Of a stretch of DNA of 11,929 nt, positions 2,996 to 11,401 are shown piece by piece. The first letter of the stretch is position 1. Each line of letters starts with the position of its first letter. The notes under the pieces are model-generated. The model worked only from the letters and a program-made list of their open reading frames with translations, made no database searches and had not been told where the DNA came from. The DNA comes from Chromatiales bacterium. Lineage in GTDB: Bacteria > Pseudomonadota > Gammaproteobacteria > UBA6429 > Thiohalophilaceae. Location of the stretch: positions 1-11,929 of the forward strand of contig JALXDW010000433.1 of assembly GCA_027070385.1 (NCBI GenBank). Reading direction: 5' to 3'. The position numbers and the translations under genes are program-made.

Positions 2996-3319
2996 ATGAC
3001 CTACATCGTGACTGACAACTGCATATTGTGTAAATACACAGACTGTGTTGAAGTATGCCCAGTTGACTGCTTTCACGAAGGCCCCAATTTTCTGGTGATC
3101 GACCCGGACGAATGCATTGACTGCACTTTGTGTGAGCCGGAATGCCCGGCCAATGCCATTTTTGCCGAAGATGAAATACCCGATGGTATGGAAAACTTCC
3201 TTGAACTCAACGAAGAACTGTCACGTGAATGGCCAGTGATAACGGAAATGAAGCCCGCCCTTCCTGAAGCTGAACAATGGGATGGAAAGAAAAACAAGCT
3301 ACAATATCTGGAACGTTAA
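2996..3319 (+). CDS. fdxA: Seven-iron ferredoxin FdxA ([3Fe-4S][4Fe-4S])
   Basis: This is a small cytoplasmic electron carrier of 107 aa, very close to Azotobacter vinelandii ferredoxin I from end to end, including the C-terminal extension that ends KLQYLER. By comparison with FdI, Cys9, Cys17 and Cys50 would bind the [3Fe-4S] cluster, and Cys21, Cys40, Cys43 and Cys46 the [4Fe-4S] cluster. The two extra cysteines typical of the family (Cys12, Cys25) are also present. A strong AGGAG ribosome binding site (2982-2986) lies nine bases before the ATG, much better than that of mutS. A TAGAAT hexamer at 2945-2950 may be a -10 box, but its -35 is poor. The physiological redox partner is not known from the sequence. 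The gene follows mutS, as in many gammaproteobacteria, and runs 21 bp ahead of the addB-like gene, so the two may be co-transcribed. Confidence 0.96.
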
Positions 3320-3340: not shown

Positions 3341-6334
3341 ATGTCTGCAATTAAACTTTATTTAACGTCGTTTGCGGACAACCCACTCGATACTGTTGCT
3401 CAACAAATTATTGAGCAACATAAAACGAGCCTTCCCCAACTTACCGATACCATTGTGCTTACCGCACAAGCTAATATAGCTTCTGAACTGCGTCACAAGC
3501 TGCTCAATTATGCCCGGCAGCAACATGTTCAGGCCTTACTCGGGCCACAGATCATCCCTATGCAGCAATGGTTGCAATCATTCCAACCTGAGAATATCCG
3601 GGTTGTTAACAGCACCACCCAGGAATTAATACTGGTCGAAGCGCTGCGTCAACATCAGAGTATACTGGGCTCTGCCAGTCCCTGGGTTTATGCTCGCAGC
3701 CTGCTACAGTTATTTCAGGAATTAACAGCCAACAAAATTAAGCTACCCAATAATGAACAGGACTTTATCAAACAGATTAGCCAGGCCTATGGCGTATCTG
3801 AAACACTGAATAGTCAGGATAAAACCAGTCATATAGAAGCACTCAGTCGTGAGGCACACTTTGTTTATACCTTATGGTATGCCTGGCATGAACAGTTAAA
3901 TGCTTACAAAGTGGTTGACTCACAAACTGCATTATTGCTTGCAATGCAAAATGCGACAAAAATATTAGCAACCCAATCCAAACTGAATTTCTATCTGCTT
4001 GGTTATGAAAAACTGACTCAAACACAATACCAGTGGCTGGAACAATTAAGCCAGCAACACGATATTCATTATTTCTTACAGGGACAATACCAACAAACAT
4101 CCAGCTCACTCGATACACGACAATACCATCCTGATAAACATATAACCGACTGTGTTAACCAGCTGTTACAACACAAAGCACAACTTCAGGAACCACGTCA
4201 TAATAACCCCGAGCCATCATCCATACGCCTGCAATTTTTAAATACTGTTTATCGTACCCAGGAGGCTCCACTTTTAGAAAGAGCCCAGACTTATCAAGAT
4301 CAAAATACCCACCCCCTTAACAATGTACATATTTTTGCTGCTAATAATGCTGAACAAGAGGCACGTGCCATTGATATTCAATTACGACGTTGGCTATTGG
4401 AAGGTAAAACCCGACTCGCAATCGTCACTGAAAACCGTCGCCTTGCACGACGCGTGCGTGCCTTGCTTGAACGTAGCGGAGTACATTTACAAGATGCAGC
4501 CGGTTGGGCATTATCCACTACCCGTGCTGCCACTATTGTAGAACGCTGGTTAGAATGTATCGAGCAGGACTTTAACTACCTGGCTCTTTTGGATCTTTTA
4601 AAGTCACCCTTTATCTTCCCTGAATATGATCATGATAGCTTGCATTATGCTGTTTATCGTCTGGAACAGGACATTATACGGCATGAAAATATCAGCAGCC
4701 ATATTAACAGTTACCGTCGTGCCATTACCAAACGTCGAGATCGATTACCTGACTGGTTCGAAGAAACCCACACGATTATCAACACTGTGCTTCAACAACT
4801 GGAAACAGCGGCTGAACCACTGCTGCAGCTCGGTCAACAACAAAATATCACGCCAGCCGGATTCATCCAGGGTATTCTGGATTCTTTTAACCCGCTGGGG
4901 TTAACAACCTCTCTTGCAAATGATGCGGCCGGCATAGAAATTATTAACCTGCTAGAAAAATTAAAGGTTGATTCGGAACTGATTCAGCTAGAATTTGACT
5001 GGAGTGAAGCCAGGGCATGGCTGGCACTGCAACTTGAGGGTAGCCGCTTTATGCCCCCGGCCAGTCAAACACAGGTACAACTGATTGGCTTGTCACAAAG
5101 CGCCCAACAGAAATTTGACGGCTTAATTATTGCGGCAGTTGAAGAAGAATTTCTACCCGGTTCCCCCAGTACTTCAGCCTTTTTCAATGACGCAGTAAAA
5201 TATGAACTCGGCCTTGCGACCTCTTTACAGGAAAAAAATGAACGCTTCTATCATTTTATGCGTTTATTAAATGCCAGTGACTCTATATTACTTAGCTACC
5301 GTAATCAGGGGGACAATGGTGAACCAATAAAACCCAGTAGCTGGCTTGCATTAATTGAACAATTTTACCGGTTAGCTTTCAATGCAGACCTGAAAGACCA
5401 AACATTGCAACAACTCGTCAACGCTCCCGAAAACACATTTACCCATCCTGCACCACGACCTGCGATGGAAGCACAACAACCCCGGCCTTCTTTACCTGAA
5501 AATTTAATTCCTGAAAAAATATCCGCATCACACTATCAGGAACTGATGAACTGCCCTTATCTTTTTTATGCTGCACGCTGCCTGAAACTCGAAGCCACCG
5601 ATGAAATACGTCAGGCACTTTCCAAAGCGGATTATGGTGAACGGATTCATCAGTGCCTGGAGGCGTTTCACCATAAAAGCGGTAAACTACCCGGCCCCTT
5701 CAAGGAAAAAGTCAGCGAACTTAATCGTGATGCAGCCGCTGAACTGTTGAACGCAATAATCAAGGAAGTTTTCAGTCGTGATTTAACTGATAACCACGAA
5801 CATCAGGCATGGTATTTACAAGCAAAAAAAATTATCCCTCATTATCTGGATTGGCAGATCCAACATCAACAAAATTGGAATGTTTATAAGGTTGAGCAAC
5901 AGTTAACAAAAGAACTTGCCATTAATCACAAGCATAAATCTTTGGAAATCAGAGGGCGACTTGATCGTATTGACAAAAATCCGCAGGGACTCGGTGTTAT
6001 CGACTATAAAACAGGTGAAGTCAGTTCCAATAAAAATGTTGAAACCGGAGAACAAGTTCAGCTGCCCTTCTACCATACCTTACTGCAAGATGAGCAACAC
6101 CAAGTTAGCGAGGTTGAATACCTCGATATAAAAAGTAACCATGTTAAAACAAAAGCCAAGCTCAGCGGTGAACAACTCGAGGCGATTGCTGAAGAATCCA
6201 CAGAACGTCTCAAGGAAATTTTCAACCAACTCCACACACAGACAGGCTTACCTGCATGGGGTGACAAAACAACCTGTGACCGCTGCAATATGCAGGGGAT
6301 TTGCCGTAAACAGATGTGGCAGGATCAACTTTAA
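3341..6334 (+). CDS. addB: AddB-like PD-(D/E)XK nuclease, iron-sulfur type
   Basis: This is a 997-aa protein with the layout of the AddB subunit of AddAB helicase-nucleases, which process double-strand DNA ends for RecA-dependent recombination. The N-terminal half resembles an inactivated helicase: residues 1-100 show no Walker A P-loop, and the middle has the family block AIVTENRRLARRVRALLERSGV followed by AGWALSTTRA. The C-terminal nuclease contains His770, GRLDRID with Asp875, VIDYKTG with Asp888 and Lys890, and a Gln907-x3-Tyr911 motif, so the catalytic set looks intact. Cys738 together with the terminal CX2CX5C (Cys979, Cys982, Cys988) matches the four-cysteine iron-sulfur staple of AddB. 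An AAGGAA box (3332-3337) sits close to the ATG. The protein is shorter than Bacillus AddB and fits the roughly 900-aa proteobacterial AddB-related group better. The symbol is used in that homologue sense. The addA-like partner lies 679 bp downstream instead of directly adjacent. Confidence 0.85.
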   Translation: MSAIKLYLTSFADNPLDTVAQQIIEQHKTSLPQLTDTIVLTAQANIASELRHKLLNYARQQHVQALLGPQIIPMQQWLQSFQPENIRVVNSTTQELILVEALRQHQSILGSASPWVYARSLLQLFQELTANKIKLPNNEQDFIKQISQAYGVSETLNSQDKTSHIEALSREAHFVYTLWYAWHEQLNAYKVVDSQTALLLAMQNATKILATQSKLNFYLLGYEKLTQTQYQWLEQLSQQHDIHYFLQGQYQQTSSSLDTRQYHPDKHITDCVNQLLQHKAQLQEPRHNNPEPSSIRLQFLNTVYRTQEAPLLERAQTYQDQNTHPLNNVHIFAANNAEQEARAIDIQLRRWLLEGKTRLAIVTENRRLARRVRALLERSGVHLQDAAGWALSTTRAATIVERWLECIEQDFNYLALLDLLKSPFIFPEYDHDSLHYAVYRLEQDIIRHENISSHINSYRRAITKRRDRLPDWFEETHTIINTVLQQLETAAEPLLQLGQQQNITPAGFIQGILDSFNPLGLTTSLANDAAGIEIINLLEKLKVDSELIQLEFDWSEARAWLALQLEGSRFMPPASQTQVQLIGLSQSAQQKFDGLIIAAVEEEFLPGSPSTSAFFNDAVKYELGLATSLQEKNERFYHFMRLLNASDSILLSYRNQGDNGEPIKPSSWLALIEQFYRLAFNADLKDQTLQQLVNAPENTFTHPAPRPAMEAQQPRPSLPENLIPEKISASHYQELMNCPYLFYAARCLKLEATDEIRQALSKADYGERIHQCLEAFHHKSGKLPGPFKEKVSELNRDAAAELLNAIIKEVFSRDLTDNHEHQAWYLQAKKIIPHYLDWQIQHQQNWNVYKVEQQLTKELAINHKHKSLEIRGRLDRIDKNPQGLGVIDYKTGEVSSNKNVETGEQVQLPFYHTLLQDEQHQVSEVEYLDIKSNHVKTKAKLSGEQLEAIAEESTERLKEIFNQLHTQTGLPAWGDKTTCDRCNMQGICRKQMWQDQL

Positions 6335-6367: not shown

Positions 6368-6481
6368 GTGAAATTAATAGTATTCGAAAAAGAAGAGAGC
6401 CTTATCGACACATCAGTACAAGAATTCATAGGCATCAGGTTTAAAGTGAGTCGGGTTGGAAAAGTTCATAAGTGCCCGTAA
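6368..6481 (+). CDS. Possible 37-aa small ORF after addB
   Basis: A GTG start is preceded by GGTGGA (6358-6363), and the frame encodes 37 residues (starting MKLIVFEKEESLID if GTG is read as Met). The composition looks protein-like, with mixed charged and hydrophobic residues and no low complexity. The stop codon lies inside the left arm of the first 43-bp repeat. It could be a remnant of a gene cut short by the repeat array or a chance frame. I recognise no family, and no membrane segment or signal peptide is visible. Confidence 0.2.
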   Translation: MKLIVFEKEESLIDTSVQEFIGIRFKVSRVGKVHKCP

Positions 6482-6593
6482 AGAAAAGAAACGGGCACTA
6501 AAAAAAGATCATAAGTGCCCGTAAAGAAAAGAAACGGGCACTAAAAAAAGATCATAAGTGCCCGTAAAGAAAAGAAACGGGCACTAAAAAAAA
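6464..6593. repeat. Three 43-bp tandem repeats with hairpins
   Basis: Three units of exactly 43 bp begin at 6464, 6507 and 6550. They differ only at the second base of the unit (GTTCATA in the first, GATCATA in the others) and in the length of the last A run. Each holds the 9-bp inverted repeat AGTGCCCGT / ACGGGCACT around the loop AAAGAAAAGAA, at 6471-6499, 6514-6542 and 6557-6585, followed by an A run. Each right arm can equally pair with the left arm of the next unit across a 14-base spacer, so two folding registers compete. On neither strand does a T run directly follow the hairpin, so these are not ordinary intrinsic terminators. The last A run supplies the U tract of the adjacent minus-strand terminator. 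Near-identity of the copies suggests recent slippage or unequal exchange. Confidence 0.95.
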
Positions 6594-6611
6594 AGACGGC
6601 TTTCGCCGTCT
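6586..6611 (-). terminator. Intrinsic terminator of the minus-strand sRNA
   Basis: On the minus strand a perfect 7-bp stem, AGACGGC / GCCGTCT (6611-6605 with 6600-6594), closes a GAAA tetraloop. Eight T residues (6593-6586) follow directly. This is a canonical Rho-independent terminator. On the + strand the hairpin is followed by ATATATTGG, a poor U tract, so it is clearly directed at minus-strand transcription. There is no protein gene on the minus strand upstream of it, which is the first clue to a non-coding transcript. Confidence 0.9.
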
Positions 6612-6825
6612 ATATATTGGTAAGTCCCTTCAGGCTAATCCAGCCCGTTTTTATTCCCGCGCAGTACGAGTTCATCGGTAAATCCTGCAATATCCGTATT
6701 CTGCCTTCATCCTTCCATACAAGCTATCCCGCTTGAATTCACGATTCCATGTGAGAGCTTCCTAACTCTTACTTTTAACTTTAGTCAAATAATGGGGCTA
6801 TTTCCCCGGCCCCCACACCTGCACT
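6586..6825 (-). ncRNA. Candidate CsrB/RsmZ-type CsrA-sequestering sRNA
   Basis: The minus strand of 6625-6805 contains eleven GGA triplets (at + strand TCC positions 6625, 6639, 6655, 6683, 6693, 6710, 6714, 6727, 6746, 6760 and 6803), against about three expected at equal base composition. Many lie in hairpin loops: GGGGC/GCCCC (6794-6813), AGAG/CTCT (6754-6769), TCAC/GTGA (6739-6754), CAAGC/GCTTG with loop GGGATA (6720-6735), AATA/TATT with loop CGGA (6689-6700) and GGCT/AGCC with loop GGATT (6633-6645). The last three are classic CsrA/RsmA target hairpins. Several triplets have the preferred A-N-GGA context. The stretch ends in a strong intrinsic terminator, and the longest ATG frame inside is about 12 codons. 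By family knowledge such RNAs titrate CsrA/RsmA, usually under GacS/GacA (BarA/UvrY) control. The 5' end is inferred from the first hairpin; the estimated length of about 240 nt is similar to CsrC. No strong promoter is visible. Confidence 0.75.
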
Positions 6826-7013
6826 AATTTTGTTAAAGTACCATAAGTCGCAAACTTTACCCGAATAAGAATATAAAACTGTGAACGACTACACACTTTT
6901 AATCCTGTAAGATTCATTAATGGGAAAGATAACAAATAAAAACCGTTTCAACATCATGCGATGCTTTTTCTTGTAATATAAACGGTCTAATTTCGATTAA
7001 AAAATAACCACAC
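6826..7013. promoter_or_regulatory. Divergent regulatory region between sRNA and addA
   Basis: This AT-rich stretch should contain the promoter of the minus-strand sRNA and that of addA. For addA the best -10 is TATAAA (6977-6982), without a good -35. It overlaps the right arm of a perfect 7-bp inverted repeat, ACCGTTT (6942-6948) / AAACGGT (6980-6986). That repeat encloses a small CATC-ATGC-GATG hairpin (6952-6963) followed by CTTTTTC. For the sRNA, minus-strand TTGCGA with CAAAAT at a short 15-bp spacing is the best, but weak, sigma-70 match. Minus-strand CTTACA (6911-6906) equals one half of the GacA/UvrY box. No coding frame is convincing. Confidence 0.4.
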
Positions 7014-10000
7014 ATGACGCAATCTGCACAAAATAACACAATGAAAAACACCAGCTTAATCATTGAAGCTTCGGCCGGGAGCGGCAAAACATATCAGCTC
7101 GTCAACCGACTTGTTCAACTGCTTATCCATGGGGCAAATCCTGCTCATATCGTTGCCATTACCTTTACCCGCAAGGCGGCTGCAGAAATGCAAGCACGCT
7201 TACAGGAACGTGTGTATAAACTCGCAACAATGGATGAAAAACAGCTGATAACTGAATTAGAAAAAATCACTGTAAAAATCAACCGTTCCCTTCTTTCCAA
7301 ATCCCGATCTTTATATGAAAGCGTGATACTCAGCCCACAAACTGTTCGCTGTACAACCTTCCATTCTTTCTGTCAGGAAATTCTGAAACGCTTTCCATTC
7401 GAAGCAGATGTACCACCTGGTTTTGAACTCAGTGAACAAACATACCTGTACAAACAGCAAGCCTGGCAGGCTCTCATGGCGGAGTGTCAACAACAGCCCA
7501 ATACCTCTGTCGCAACAGCCGTCAACTTTTTATTTGACGAATTTGGACTTTACAACACCCGTGAAGCACTCAACAGTTTTCTCGAGCAACGCAGTGACTG
7601 GTGGGCATGGACACAAACAGCCAATAACCCGCCAGGCTATGCCATAAGCCGTATGCAGGACCAATTAGGCGTTAACCCGACAGCCCATCCACTTGATGAT
7701 TTTTTCAACCAAAACACATTGGATGAACAACTGGGCCAGTTTTGCAACGCCCTGAACCATTTGAAAGCCAAAAAATATAAAACCGCACTGAATGCCATCA
7801 GTTATGCCCGTGATAGCAACCTTGATAACAAACAACGTTTGATGCATATGCGGGTTGCATTCCTGACAAAATCCGGTAGCCCTCTGTCACATAAAATAAC
7901 TAAGGAAATGGAAAAAGTACTGGGACAAACCGGTGCAAATAACTTTATACAAACCCACCTGGATATTTGCCAACAACTTCAACAACTCGATGAACCCTTA
8001 AACTTGCAAAAAAGTTATCAGGTCAATAAACACTGGTATATTGCCGGCCATGCATATTTGAACCACTACCAACAAATAAAATTTTCTTTACGGCAACTTG
8101 ATTTCACAGACCTTGAATGGAAAACCTATTGCCTGCTTACTAAAAGTCAACATGCTGTATGGGTTCAATACAAACTTGATGCAAGAATTAATCATTTACT
8201 CATTGATGAGTTTCAGGACACCAACCCGATTCAATGGCGATTACTGCAACCACTGATAGAAGAATTCAGCCAGGATCAACAATCGAATGAACAGCGCAGT
8301 ATTTTATTGGTTGGCGATGTCAAGCAATCTATTTACCGGTTTCGAAGAGCCGAACCCCGACTGTTCCCTGTTGCCAGCACATACATTGAAAAGCATTTTA
8401 ATAGTCAGCATTTGCCCCTGAATACATCCTGGCGCTCTTCCCCTGCTATCATTCATTTTGTGAATAAATTATTCAGCGAAACATCTTTAAGCAAAGCCAT
8501 TCCTGATTTCCCGCAACACACAACCATGCAAAAAGAACTGCCAGGCTGTGTCACCTTGCTTGATTACCCAGAGCTGGAAGAAAAACAAGATAAAGACAAG
8601 CCAACTTCATTTCGTAATCCTCTCAAACAGCCACGGGCTGAAAAAGAGAACCCTAATCAATTGGAGGCGAATCTGATTGCAAATAAAATCAAGGAACTGA
8701 TTCATCATCCTTTAACTGTCACTGATAATAATATTAGCCGCGCACTGCAATACAAGGATATTATTATCCTGCTACGCAACAGAACAAATGCCAGCCATTA
8801 TGAAAAAGCTTTGCACCAGCACGGGATCCCGTTTGTGGGTTCTGAACGTGGTACATTGCTGGACTGCCTTGAAGTGAATGATATCGTGATGTTACTCAAC
8901 TGGTTGATTACTCCTTTCAATAACATTGCACTTGCCAGTATTTTGCGTAGCCCTTTGTTTTCTGTCCCGGAGCATACACTTATGCAACTGGCCCAACTGC
9001 ACTTGAAAGACAATGCCAATAACAACTGGTTTAACAAGATAAAAACACTGTTATCAACATCGGAAGATACCGCCTTGGCTCATGCATTCAAATTACTGAA
9101 TAACTGGAAAAGTATTGCAACACACATTCCCGTGCATGATCTACTGGATGTTATATACAATGAAGCAGATGTACTTGCACAATACAATCGTGCATACCCT
9201 TCACACTTAAAGTCCAGAACACGTCATAATTTAACCCGACTGATTGAATTAGCTCTGGAAATTGATAGTGGCCGTTACCCAAGTTTGCAACAGTTTATTG
9301 CTCATATCCAGGAACTGAAAAACCTGAAAAATGAAGCCCCGGATACTCCGGCCTCAAGCAACGATCTTAACCGTGTCCAGGTGATGACGATACATGCCGC
9401 CAAAGGGCTCGAAGCACCTGTTATATTTCTAGCCAATACCGATACGGAAGGACAGTCTAACTTCACTTACAAAACCATTCTGGAATGGCCCGTTGAACAG
9501 GAATCACCTGACATTATGTTACTGGTGAATAAAACCAGTCAACGTGATCCAGTTACTGAAGCACTTATCCATAAGGATACCCTTGCAGAACAACGCGAAG
9601 CAGCCAACGTGTTCTATGTTGCCATTACACGAGCCCAACAATACCTTTTTATTTCTGCCGCCAAACCATCAAAAACAGGAAACGATTGGTATACACTTAT
9701 TAAAAATTGTTATGCCATTGAACAATCTCAAACTGAACATATTCTCGAACATTATAAAATAAATCAGTCACAACAAACCAACCCACCTGAACAAGTAATA
9801 TCCAAGGCCACTGCCAGCATAGATAAAAGGTTGAACAACTTTATCACTCTGGATACCCGTTACCATGATTTACAAAAAACTCTTTCCCCCAGCCATATTA
9901 TGGAAGAACGACAACATACGAAAACACTTTCAACTGAACAAACAGATTCCGATGCCACTATCCGAGGTATAGTTATTCACGCTATTCTCGAAGATATCAG

Positions 10001-10448
10001 TGAAAATCCGTTACTCCCTGAAACAGTTTGCAAAAATAAAAATGGCCAGGAAATATCGGATAGTTTATGGAAACAATGCTGGCAAGAAGCTCAGGCTGTA
10101 CTCAAGCATAATGATTTTTCTTTTATTTTTCCAAATCAAACTGAGCAACACAATACACAAGGATCGGCCATAAAAACCTATAATGAAGTCCCTGTGAGCT
10201 ATCTGCAAAACAACACAACAATATTTGGTATTATTGACCGTGTTATTGTCTTGGAAAATACCGTACACATTGTTGATTATAAAACCCATCAGTCAGTGGA
10301 TAAAACAAATATTCAAACCATTGCAGCACACTATCAACCCCAATTAATGCATTACCAACAAGCAGCTCAACTTATCTGGCCAGAACATAGCGTACACAGT
10401 TATCTACTGTTGACACATGCAAAGATTTTGTATCAATACGAATCGTGA
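7014..10448 (+). CDS. addA: AddA-like UvrD-family helicase-nuclease
   Basis: This 1144-aa protein should be the motor and second nuclease of an AddAB-type complex acting on broken DNA ends. Superfamily 1A helicase motifs appear in order: Walker A AGSGKT (21-26), Ia ITFTRKAAAEM, TFHSFC, Walker B DEFQD (398-402), motif III GDVKQSIYRFR (from 434), motif IV LNTSWRSSPAI, motif V MTIHAAKGLE (791-800) and motif VI VFYVAITRAQ with the arginine finger at Arg873. The C-terminal PD-(D/E)XK nuclease has RGIVIH (His989), GIIDRV (Asp1075) and VDYKT (Asp1088, Lys1090), so it looks active. RecB shares this layout, but the AddB-like gene upstream and the absence of RecC or RecD here favour AddA. An in-frame TAA at 7005 limits the start to ATG 7014 or ATG 7041; neither has a Shine-Dalgarno. 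It lies 679 bp from addB, which implies its own promoter. Confidence 0.9.
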   Translation: MTQSAQNNTMKNTSLIIEASAGSGKTYQLVNRLVQLLIHGANPAHIVAITFTRKAAAEMQARLQERVYKLATMDEKQLITELEKITVKINRSLLSKSRSLYESVILSPQTVRCTTFHSFCQEILKRFPFEADVPPGFELSEQTYLYKQQAWQALMAECQQQPNTSVATAVNFLFDEFGLYNTREALNSFLEQRSDWWAWTQTANNPPGYAISRMQDQLGVNPTAHPLDDFFNQNTLDEQLGQFCNALNHLKAKKYKTALNAISYARDSNLDNKQRLMHMRVAFLTKSGSPLSHKITKEMEKVLGQTGANNFIQTHLDICQQLQQLDEPLNLQKSYQVNKHWYIAGHAYLNHYQQIKFSLRQLDFTDLEWKTYCLLTKSQHAVWVQYKLDARINHLLIDEFQDTNPIQWRLLQPLIEEFSQDQQSNEQRSILLVGDVKQSIYRFRRAEPRLFPVASTYIEKHFNSQHLPLNTSWRSSPAIIHFVNKLFSETSLSKAIPDFPQHTTMQKELPGCVTLLDYPELEEKQDKDKPTSFRNPLKQPRAEKENPNQLEANLIANKIKELIHHPLTVTDNNISRALQYKDIIILLRNRTNASHYEKALHQHGIPFVGSERGTLLDCLEVNDIVMLLNWLITPFNNIALASILRSPLFSVPEHTLMQLAQLHLKDNANNNWFNKIKTLLSTSEDTALAHAFKLLNNWKSIATHIPVHDLLDVIYNEADVLAQYNRAYPSHLKSRTRHNLTRLIELALEIDSGRYPSLQQFIAHIQELKNLKNEAPDTPASSNDLNRVQVMTIHAAKGLEAPVIFLANTDTEGQSNFTYKTILEWPVEQESPDIMLLVNKTSQRDPVTEALIHKDTLAEQREAANVFYVAITRAQQYLFISAAKPSKTGNDWYTLIKNCYAIEQSQTEHILEHYKINQSQQTNPPEQVISKATASIDKRLNNFITLDTRYHDLQKTLSPSHIMEERQHTKTLSTEQTDSDATIRGIVIHAILEDISENPLLPETVCKNKNGQEISDSLWKQCWQEAQAVLKHNDFSFIFPNQTEQHNTQGSAIKTYNEVPVSYLQNNTTIFGIIDRVIVLENTVHIVDYKTHQSVDKTNIQTIAAHYQPQLMHYQQAAQLIWPEHSVHSYLLLTHAKILYQYES

Positions 10449-10534: not shown

Positions 10535-11401
10535 ATGACCGATACCGTTGTTGATGTAACTGCCGAAACATTTCAAACCCAGGTTATGGATAATTCCATG
10601 CAAAAGCTGGTGTTACTGGATTTTTGGGCAAGCTGGTGTCAGCCTTGCAAACAACTTGTTCCAATACTGGTGAAGCTTGCAAATGAATACGGTGGTGAGT
10701 TGTTGCTGGCAAAAGTGGATATCGATCAAAATAAAGAACTTGCTGAACATTTTCAGGTACGCAGTGTCCCTACCGTCAAGTTTATTCGTAATGGCCAGAT
10801 TGTCGATGAGTTCTCCGGGGTATTATCTGAAGCCGAAATCAAAGGCAAACTCAGTAACCATATTCAACGTGAATCGGATGCACTGTATCAGCAAGCCATG
10901 GAACAATTACAACAAGGCGATAATGCAGCTATCGCTAAAATGCAGGAAATCTGTTTAAACGATACCGACAATCAAAAGATTGCTATACATTTTGCCAGCC
11001 TCCTTGCTCAAACCCAGCAGTTTGAACAGGCAAAGTGCTTTATTGAGGCCTTACCCGACACGCTGAAAAACAAGGAAGAAATCAAAAGTATTTCAGCACA
11101 AATTAAAATTGCAGAATCTGCCAAAGATTTACCTGAACCTGCCAGCCTTATGGAAAAAATTGAAAAAAATCCCGACGATCTCAAAGCTCGCTATCAACTT
11201 AGCCAACAACTTGTTTTACAGGGTGATATTGCATCGGCAATGGAGCAACTCCTGGAAATTATAAGGCGAGACAGAAAATTTGAAGACGACCTTGGAAGAA
11301 AAGAATTACTCAAACTCTTTGATATTGTCGGCACCCAGGGTGAACAAGGTGCTCAACTTGTCGGTGATTATCGGCGCAAACTGGCACGCGTGCTTAACTA
11401 A
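10535..11401 (+). CDS. ybbN: YbbN/CnoX-type thioredoxin with TPR-like tail
   Basis: This is a 288-aa cytoplasmic protein. An N-terminal thioredoxin domain (about 1-110) contains LLDFWASWCQPCKQ with Cys35 and Cys38 and the cis-proline loop RSVPT (Pro79). The helical C-terminal part (about 115-288) reads as TPR-like pairs such as ALYQQAMEQLQQGD and ARYQLSQQLVLQGD, the fold of the E. coli CnoX (YbbN) family. These proteins hold unfolded clients and pass them to GroEL or DnaK under oxidative stress. E. coli CnoX lacks the first redox cysteine, whereas this protein keeps both, so it may also reduce mixed disulfides. The motif is CQPC and not the CGPC of thioredoxin 1. An AGGACA box (10523-10528) sits well before the ATG. 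The gene starts 86 bp after addA and ends before a convergent dsbC-like gene. There is no signal peptide. Confidence 0.9.
   Translation: MTDTVVDVTAETFQTQVMDNSMQKLVLLDFWASWCQPCKQLVPILVKLANEYGGELLLAKVDIDQNKELAEHFQVRSVPTVKFIRNGQIVDEFSGVLSEAEIKGKLSNHIQRESDALYQQAMEQLQQGDNAAIAKMQEICLNDTDNQKIAIHFASLLAQTQQFEQAKCFIEALPDTLKNKEEIKSISAQIKIAESAKDLPEPASLMEKIEKNPDDLKARYQLSQQLVLQGDIASAMEQLLEIIRRDRKFEDDLGRKELLKLFDIVGTQGEQGAQLVGDYRRKLARVLN

Follow-up and report, generated by a model that had tools for sequence, protein, structure and literature searches.

A conserved GGA-rich small RNA gene of predicted Csr/Rsm class between addB and addA in an order of Gammaproteobacteria

Gene order and features of the addB-addA spacer

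The window, the whole 11,929-nt stretch of DNA that was analysed, comes from an assembly (G000) that is 83% complete and split into 530 contigs. Its protein genes all lie on the plus strand: mutS (326-2917) and fdxA (2996-3319), followed by addB (3341-6334), addA (7014-10448) and a thioredoxin-fold gene (10535-11401). The mutS, fdxA and thioredoxin-fold genes pass the NCBIfam cut-offs, and the other two are assigned to their best families, AddB at 206.3 bits (below the model cut-off of 486.5) and AddA at 577.7 bits (below the model cut-off of 860.75). A gap of 679 nt separates addB from addA, and its minus strand carries the RNA described here, giving the order mutS-fdxA-addB-RNA-addA.

The conserved core of the small RNA (sRNA) gene extends over 6586..6765 on the minus strand and contains 10 GGA; the covariance models R1 and R2 both match precisely these positions, and BLASTN conservation starts near 6765 in two genus mates. 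The predicted full transcript (6586..6828, minus strand) would be ~240 nt long with 11 GGA, its 5' end being placed by inference at 6828 to about 6820. The original prediction had drawn attention to eleven GGA triplets within 181 nt of minus strand, a count that is exact: between 6825 and 6586 the motif occurs 11 times, from 6805 to 6625, and never on the plus strand.

Several of these triplets sit in hairpins of the minus strand. Hairpin 1 (TCACATGGAATCGTGA, 6739..6754) holds a loop GGA (CACAnGGAnnnGTG) that is present in 33 of 33 aligned sequences, with 93.2% of alignment cells paired, and hairpin 2 (CAAGC GGGATA GCTTG, 6720..6735) is perfect in the window, with 79.4% of cells paired. The hairpin AATA CGGA TATT (6689..6700) is present in the window sequence; two genus mates keep only part of it, as read from the alignment. 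In hairpin 4 (CGGGC TGGATTA GCCTG, 6631..6647), 97.0% of cells are paired and the conserved GGA, within GGCnGGAnnGCC, occurs in all 33 sequences. The perfect stems that had been named beforehand are all found, CAAGC/GCTTG within 6735-6720, AATA/TATT within 6700-6689 and GGCT/AGCC within 6647-6631, as is the directional terminator (6611-6586), an intrinsic terminator called on the minus strand with a 7-bp stem (6594..6611) and T8 at 6593-6586. Folding had been proposed as a check; the folding energy of the window RNA is ordinary (z -1.17), with 26 of 200 shuffles folding equally well. The claim that the stretch has no reading frame probably holds. Inspection of three genus members by eye showed no common frame, the longest closed frames span 9-48 codons in 31 sequences (L058 and L068 left out), and a reading of the stretch as an open reading frame was rejected.

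The spacer has two further features. A 43-bp unit, repeated in tandem 3.1 times with 98% matches, occupies 6460-6592, adjoining the RNA terminator downstream, and each repeat unit carries a AGTGCCCG/CGGGCACT hairpin. In the genus mate G002, an extra open frame of 172 aa, partly masked, lies between addB and the RNA (L002, 447-965), so the spacer there is variable.

Distribution, conservation and alternative explanations

The original prediction had thought the RNA possibly too divergent for standard models, and in the window all Rfam families stay below their gathering scores. The covariance search returned PrrB/RsmZ (RF00166) as the best weak match, at 23.2 bits where 44 is the gathering score (E 0.0028), reaching from 6721 to the terminator. 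The RF00166 gathering cut-off is reached in none of the 58 genomes, and scores of at least 20 bits occur at 15 places in them, the window's included. At 22 loci with weak RF00166 matches, GGA was counted on the match strand over the 180 nt that lead to the 3' end: the window has 10 and 17 of the 21 others have at most five, the remaining four being L009 (10), L012 (9), L010 (7) and L027 (6). Weak RF00166 scores thus fall on GGA-poor terminators too, and the weak match was dropped as sole evidence since comparable scores occur there; alone it is poor evidence, and the comparative data must carry the claim.

Three of these loci, each with a weak RF00166 match of 25-28 bits, are candidate Csr/Rsm RNAs in their own right: L009 1501-1610 (+) in G055, L012 1501-1663 (+) in G043 and L010 1501-1612 (-) in G015. 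Two of the genomes also have a copy of the present RNA, G055 beside fdxA (L186) and G015 beside addA (L043). At another locus, L046 2023-1885 (-), outside the RNA and on the opposite strand to it, TwoAYGGAY (RF01731) scores 46.3 bits against a gathering score of 43; inverted repeats abound in that stretch, and the match may be false.

BLASTN of the region against 58 genomes gave matches in seven, the window's own counted, and R1 was built from seven aligned sequences. The 40 genomes of the family that were searched are the same 40 that make up the order, and 35 of them have an R1 copy at E<1e-6; weaker second matches within the same genomes were not counted as members. In one genus of the family the N-terminal part of AddA (L070) shares 75% identity with a protein labelled Thiohalophilus sp., and the order is therefore probably the one to which Thiohalophilus belongs. 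The other five (G003, G005, G010, G012 and G024) gave no convincing match, G012 having only a weak top match of 20.4 bits that was not counted. TBLASTN of the window proteins placed addA, addB or fdxA next to the RNA in 33 of the 35 loci, with addA and/or addB as neighbours in 28 and fdxA in five, and the contigs of the other two (L058 and L068) stop at the RNA on the side where the neighbours would be seen. Among the 28 R1 matches outside the training set, 26 share this addA/addB/fdxA neighbourhood, which provides independent support for the RNA.

No plasmid record matched the RNA. A first AddA scan of named genomes found none; a scan with an AddA alignment gave 80 AddA loci, and in the 22 of these 80 that were searched R1 found nothing at E<=1 and R2 nothing convincing (best 12.6 bits, E 0.027, at L154). 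Across the class, R2 matched 51 of 369 genomes at E<=0.001, four of the 51 in the order. The weaker class-wide matches mostly lacked the addA/addB/fdxA neighbourhood in the loci examined, which indicates that R2 E-values run optimistic, and such matches are not claimed as members. Eight genomes outside the order matched at E<1e-6, and addA, addB or fdxA lies near the RNA in seven of them (L180-L184, L186 and L187), directly beside it in the case of fdxA at L186 and ~0.8 kb away in the case of fdxA at L184. The eighth, L185 (33 bits), is a false positive that overlaps the 3' end of rplS, as read from the frame, and its terminator.

The constancy of the neighbourhood also bears on whether the RNA is free or acts in cis. 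CsrA acts on mRNA leaders too, and since 28 of the 35 genomes have addA or addB next to the RNA, it could be the extended 5' leader of its neighbour or regulate that gene in antisense, acting in cis as a CsrA-binding region rather than as a free sRNA. We consider this improbable. The RNA is directed away from addA in every locus that shows addA, it has its own covarying terminator, and in five loci (L050, L067, L069, L079 and L081) it lies directly beside fdxA with addA and addB absent from the stretch examined, so the RNA does not depend on addA or addB.

Conservation was measured in a MAFFT alignment (A4) of 33 of the 35 members, G004 and G021, which are longer and have 67% GC, being left out. 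Pairwise identity by a simple measure is ~0.67 for the RNA and 0.15 and 0.12 for the 180-nt flanks (31 of the 33 sequences, again without L058 and L068). A 26-pair structure is paired in 90.8% of cells over the 33 sequences, as compared to 27-36% when it is slid by 1-3 columns, and 66 cells are changed on both sides versus 23.2 in shuffles. Such changes on both sides affect all eight terminator pairs and four of the five in hairpin 2, whereas hairpins 1 and 4 each have a single pair of this kind; it should be noted that the terminator supplies much of the covariation and that any sRNA would share this. A long-range consensus helix (columns 88-91 with 141-144) is weak and doubtful, with 83.6% of cells paired and zero double changes.

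The GGA triplets are conserved along with the stems. The GGA columns of hairpins 1 and 4 are invariant, six more are kept in 16-28 and two more in 8-10 of the 33 sequences, and hairpin loops with four or more closing pairs hold 136 of the 288 GGA, as compared to 24% in shuffles. A conserved base-pairing sRNA of the Hfq type, in which the GGAs were incidental, would equally account for the conservation across the order and for a Rho-independent terminator, both of which fit any sRNA. This reading is more improbable still, given that two loop GGAs are invariant and that GGA in hairpin loops is twice as frequent as in shuffles, whereas base-pairing sRNAs typically keep an unstructured seed instead.

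Within the single window sequence the GGA excess is moderate: the count in 6765-6586 is equalled in 107 of 5000 dinucleotide shuffles and that in 6825-6586 in 298 of 5000, with five of 5000 mononucleotide shuffles equalling the GGA count. Among 23,500 stretches of 180 nt from both strands of the window, none exceeds the RNA's count and 57 have 10 GGA, all of them here. Across the 33 aligned sequences the excess is clear, with 288 GGA on the RNA strand (7-10 per sequence) and eight on the opposite strand, as compared to an expected 191.5 +/- 9.4 and a maximum of 213 in 200 dinucleotide shuffles. Chance GGA richness of an intergenic spacer, with which those 107 shuffles and the unremarkable fold of the single sequence agree, is hardly credible in view of the 33-sequence counts, the covariation and the presence of the RNA in 35 of the 40 genomes.

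The spacer between addB and addA thus holds a real gene on its minus strand. With GGA hairpins, covarying stems, two loop GGAs kept in every aligned sequence and a gene neighbourhood seen in 33 of the 35 loci, the assignment to the Csr/Rsm functional class made in the original prediction stands, and the motifs and stems whose lack of conservation among close relatives it had named as refuting are conserved. On these sequence features the gene is very probably a stand-alone member of the class, with sequestration of CsrA as its predicted activity.

Putative promoter and Csr circuit genes

Transcription of the RNA would begin near 6828-6820, a start inferred from a putative promoter with a CRP-type site ~60 nt upstream. 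The site is a CRP-like palindrome (TGTGTAGTCGTTCACA, 6880..6895, minus strand) that has nine of 10 consensus bases and would be centred at about -60 if the start lies near 6828, which we take to be a class I arrangement. A putative -10 box read by eye, TACTTT (6835..6840, minus strand), has a spacing of 47 nt to the site centre and is conserved in three genus members (L040, L041 and L044); in these three a script chose CAAAAT, at 55 nt, as the -10. A sigma-70 scan found no promoter for the RNA.

Over 32 upstream regions (L058, where the contig ends, being left out) the pattern TGTGA-N6-TCACA scores a mean of 8.4 of 10, as compared to 6.7 +/- 0.1 in mononucleotide shuffles, and reaches 9 or 10 in 16 of the 32. 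The best CRP-like sites are not at one common distance, with outliers such as L043, L050 and L067, and a search for -10 hexamers in 26 regions placed eight at 46-47 nt from the site centre and found 15 without such spacing. The palindrome is perfect in genus g12 as well (L068, L069 and L079), although addA does not adjoin the RNA there, and it therefore goes with the RNA and not with addA. In the same 32 regions the GacA box TGTAAG-N6-CTTACA has a mean best score of 7.9 of 12 versus 7.7 in shuffles (7 of 12 in the window, and strong only in L055, at 11 of 12), and FNR and LetA-type boxes score no better than shuffles. Control of the RNA by CRP is moderately likely from this pattern of sites, and CRP-cAMP regulation of CsrB/CsrC is reported for Salmonella and Yersinia (PMC7591399, PMC3523269).

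Most of the relatives have csrA, a uvrY-like gene and a crp-like gene. The original prediction had held that a genome with no CsrA/RsmA gene would speak against the RNA; csrA was indeed not found in G000, but two of the three genus mates have it, and the search of 58 genomes, G000 among them, found it in 50, which makes a gap in the 83%-complete assembly the likelier cause. A UvrY/GacA-like regulator occurs in 33 of 40 genomes, the best matches being 39-56% identical to E. coli UvrY, and that of the genus mate G001 scores 296.2 bits, above the NCBIfam UvrY/SirA/GacA cut-off of 280. No uvrY-like gene was found in G000 or G003, and in G000 the lack of both it and csrA is probably due to assembly gaps. 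A CRP-like protein occurs in 38 of 40 genomes, G000 included (64% identity).

Taken as a stand-alone Csr/Rsm RNA, the transcript probably soaks up CsrA. Transcription would stop at the terminator (6611-6586), and the resulting RNA of ~240 nt would present 10-11 GGA, several of them in CACAnGGAnnnGUG-type hairpin loops, and each motif would occupy one face of a CsrA/RsmA dimer. Production of the RNA would draw CsrA off its target mRNAs and so free these targets from repression.

Relation to RsmZ and other known Csr/Rsm RNAs

The RNA is probably RsmZ-like. In published accounts, P. aeruginosa rsmZ lies between rpoS and fdxA (PMC3349714), fdxA and rsmZ are given as flanks in the same species (PMC3902932), and fdxA, mutS and rpoS are named in the rsmZ region (PMC4353343); RsmY and RsmZ have eight GGA each and sequester RsmA-type repressors (PMC4353343). 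The window RNA has the mutS-fdxA location that would be looked for in an RsmZ, and where it lies directly beside fdxA without addA or addB alongside, mutS follows beyond fdxA in four of the five loci (L067, L069, L079 and L081). GGA hairpins, a single terminator, the fdxA neighbourhood and weak model matches in both directions (RF00166 to the window RNA and R2 to RsmZ) are common to it and PrrB/RsmZ of Pseudomonas. Conversely, it scores far below the RF00166 gathering cut-off, is predicted to be longer (~240 versus 133 nt), adjoins addB and addA instead of rpoS, and belongs to an order with a CRP-like site and a GacA box not above chance.

One genome of the class-wide set has a true RsmZ, at 84.2 bits to RF00166 and downstream of rpoS. 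Neither fdxA nor mutS was found within 17 kb of it, which argues against a shared place in that genome. R2 matches precisely this RsmZ at 22 bits, the best among 23 loci; the match carries weight because it falls on RsmZ, yet 22-bit R2 matches are not rare at whole-genome scale, and common descent is therefore likely, not proven. We accordingly lean towards placing the window RNA in the RsmZ lineage. A broader scenario can be offered as tentative, and as rather less likely: a single ancestral CsrA sponge beside mutS-fdxA may have been inherited across distant gammaproteobacterial orders, its switch in this order having been rewired, with a CRP site taking over from the GacA box and carbon status thereby directly setting the level of free CsrA.

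Similarity to the other known families is looser. CsrB/CsrC (RF00018 and RF00084) belong to the same function class, and one relative, L056, scores 27.5 bits to CsrB (gathering 71); the window RNA is shorter than the 356-position CsrB model, and presumably also differs in having fewer GGA and a different genome place. RsmX/RsmY, represented by TwoAYGGAY (RF01731), are likewise GGA hairpin RNAs, and RF01731 and RF00166 both belong to Rfam clan CL00106. RF01731 has no match at the RNA in the window or in 20 relatives scanned, in an output that gave the best of overlapping clan matches and may thus conceal a weaker one; its single hit is that in L046.

A 2006 study reportedly made a genome-wide prediction of Csr RNAs. 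Titles and the beginnings of abstracts, mostly from non-subscription sources, contain no description of the present RNA, and an earlier prediction is possible; the part of PMC5568370 consulted makes no mention of it. The RNA is ordinary in kind, the Csr/Rsm class being already known, and its placement is the useful part. For an order of Gammaproteobacteria that has been little studied, it would provide the RNA component so far missing from the Csr/Rsm circuit, and the covariance model detects it where Rfam reports nothing. Because the RNA lies beside mutS-fdxA, the age of RsmZ and its line of descent can be put to the test, and the CRP-like site points to carbon status being coupled directly to CsrA in these organisms.
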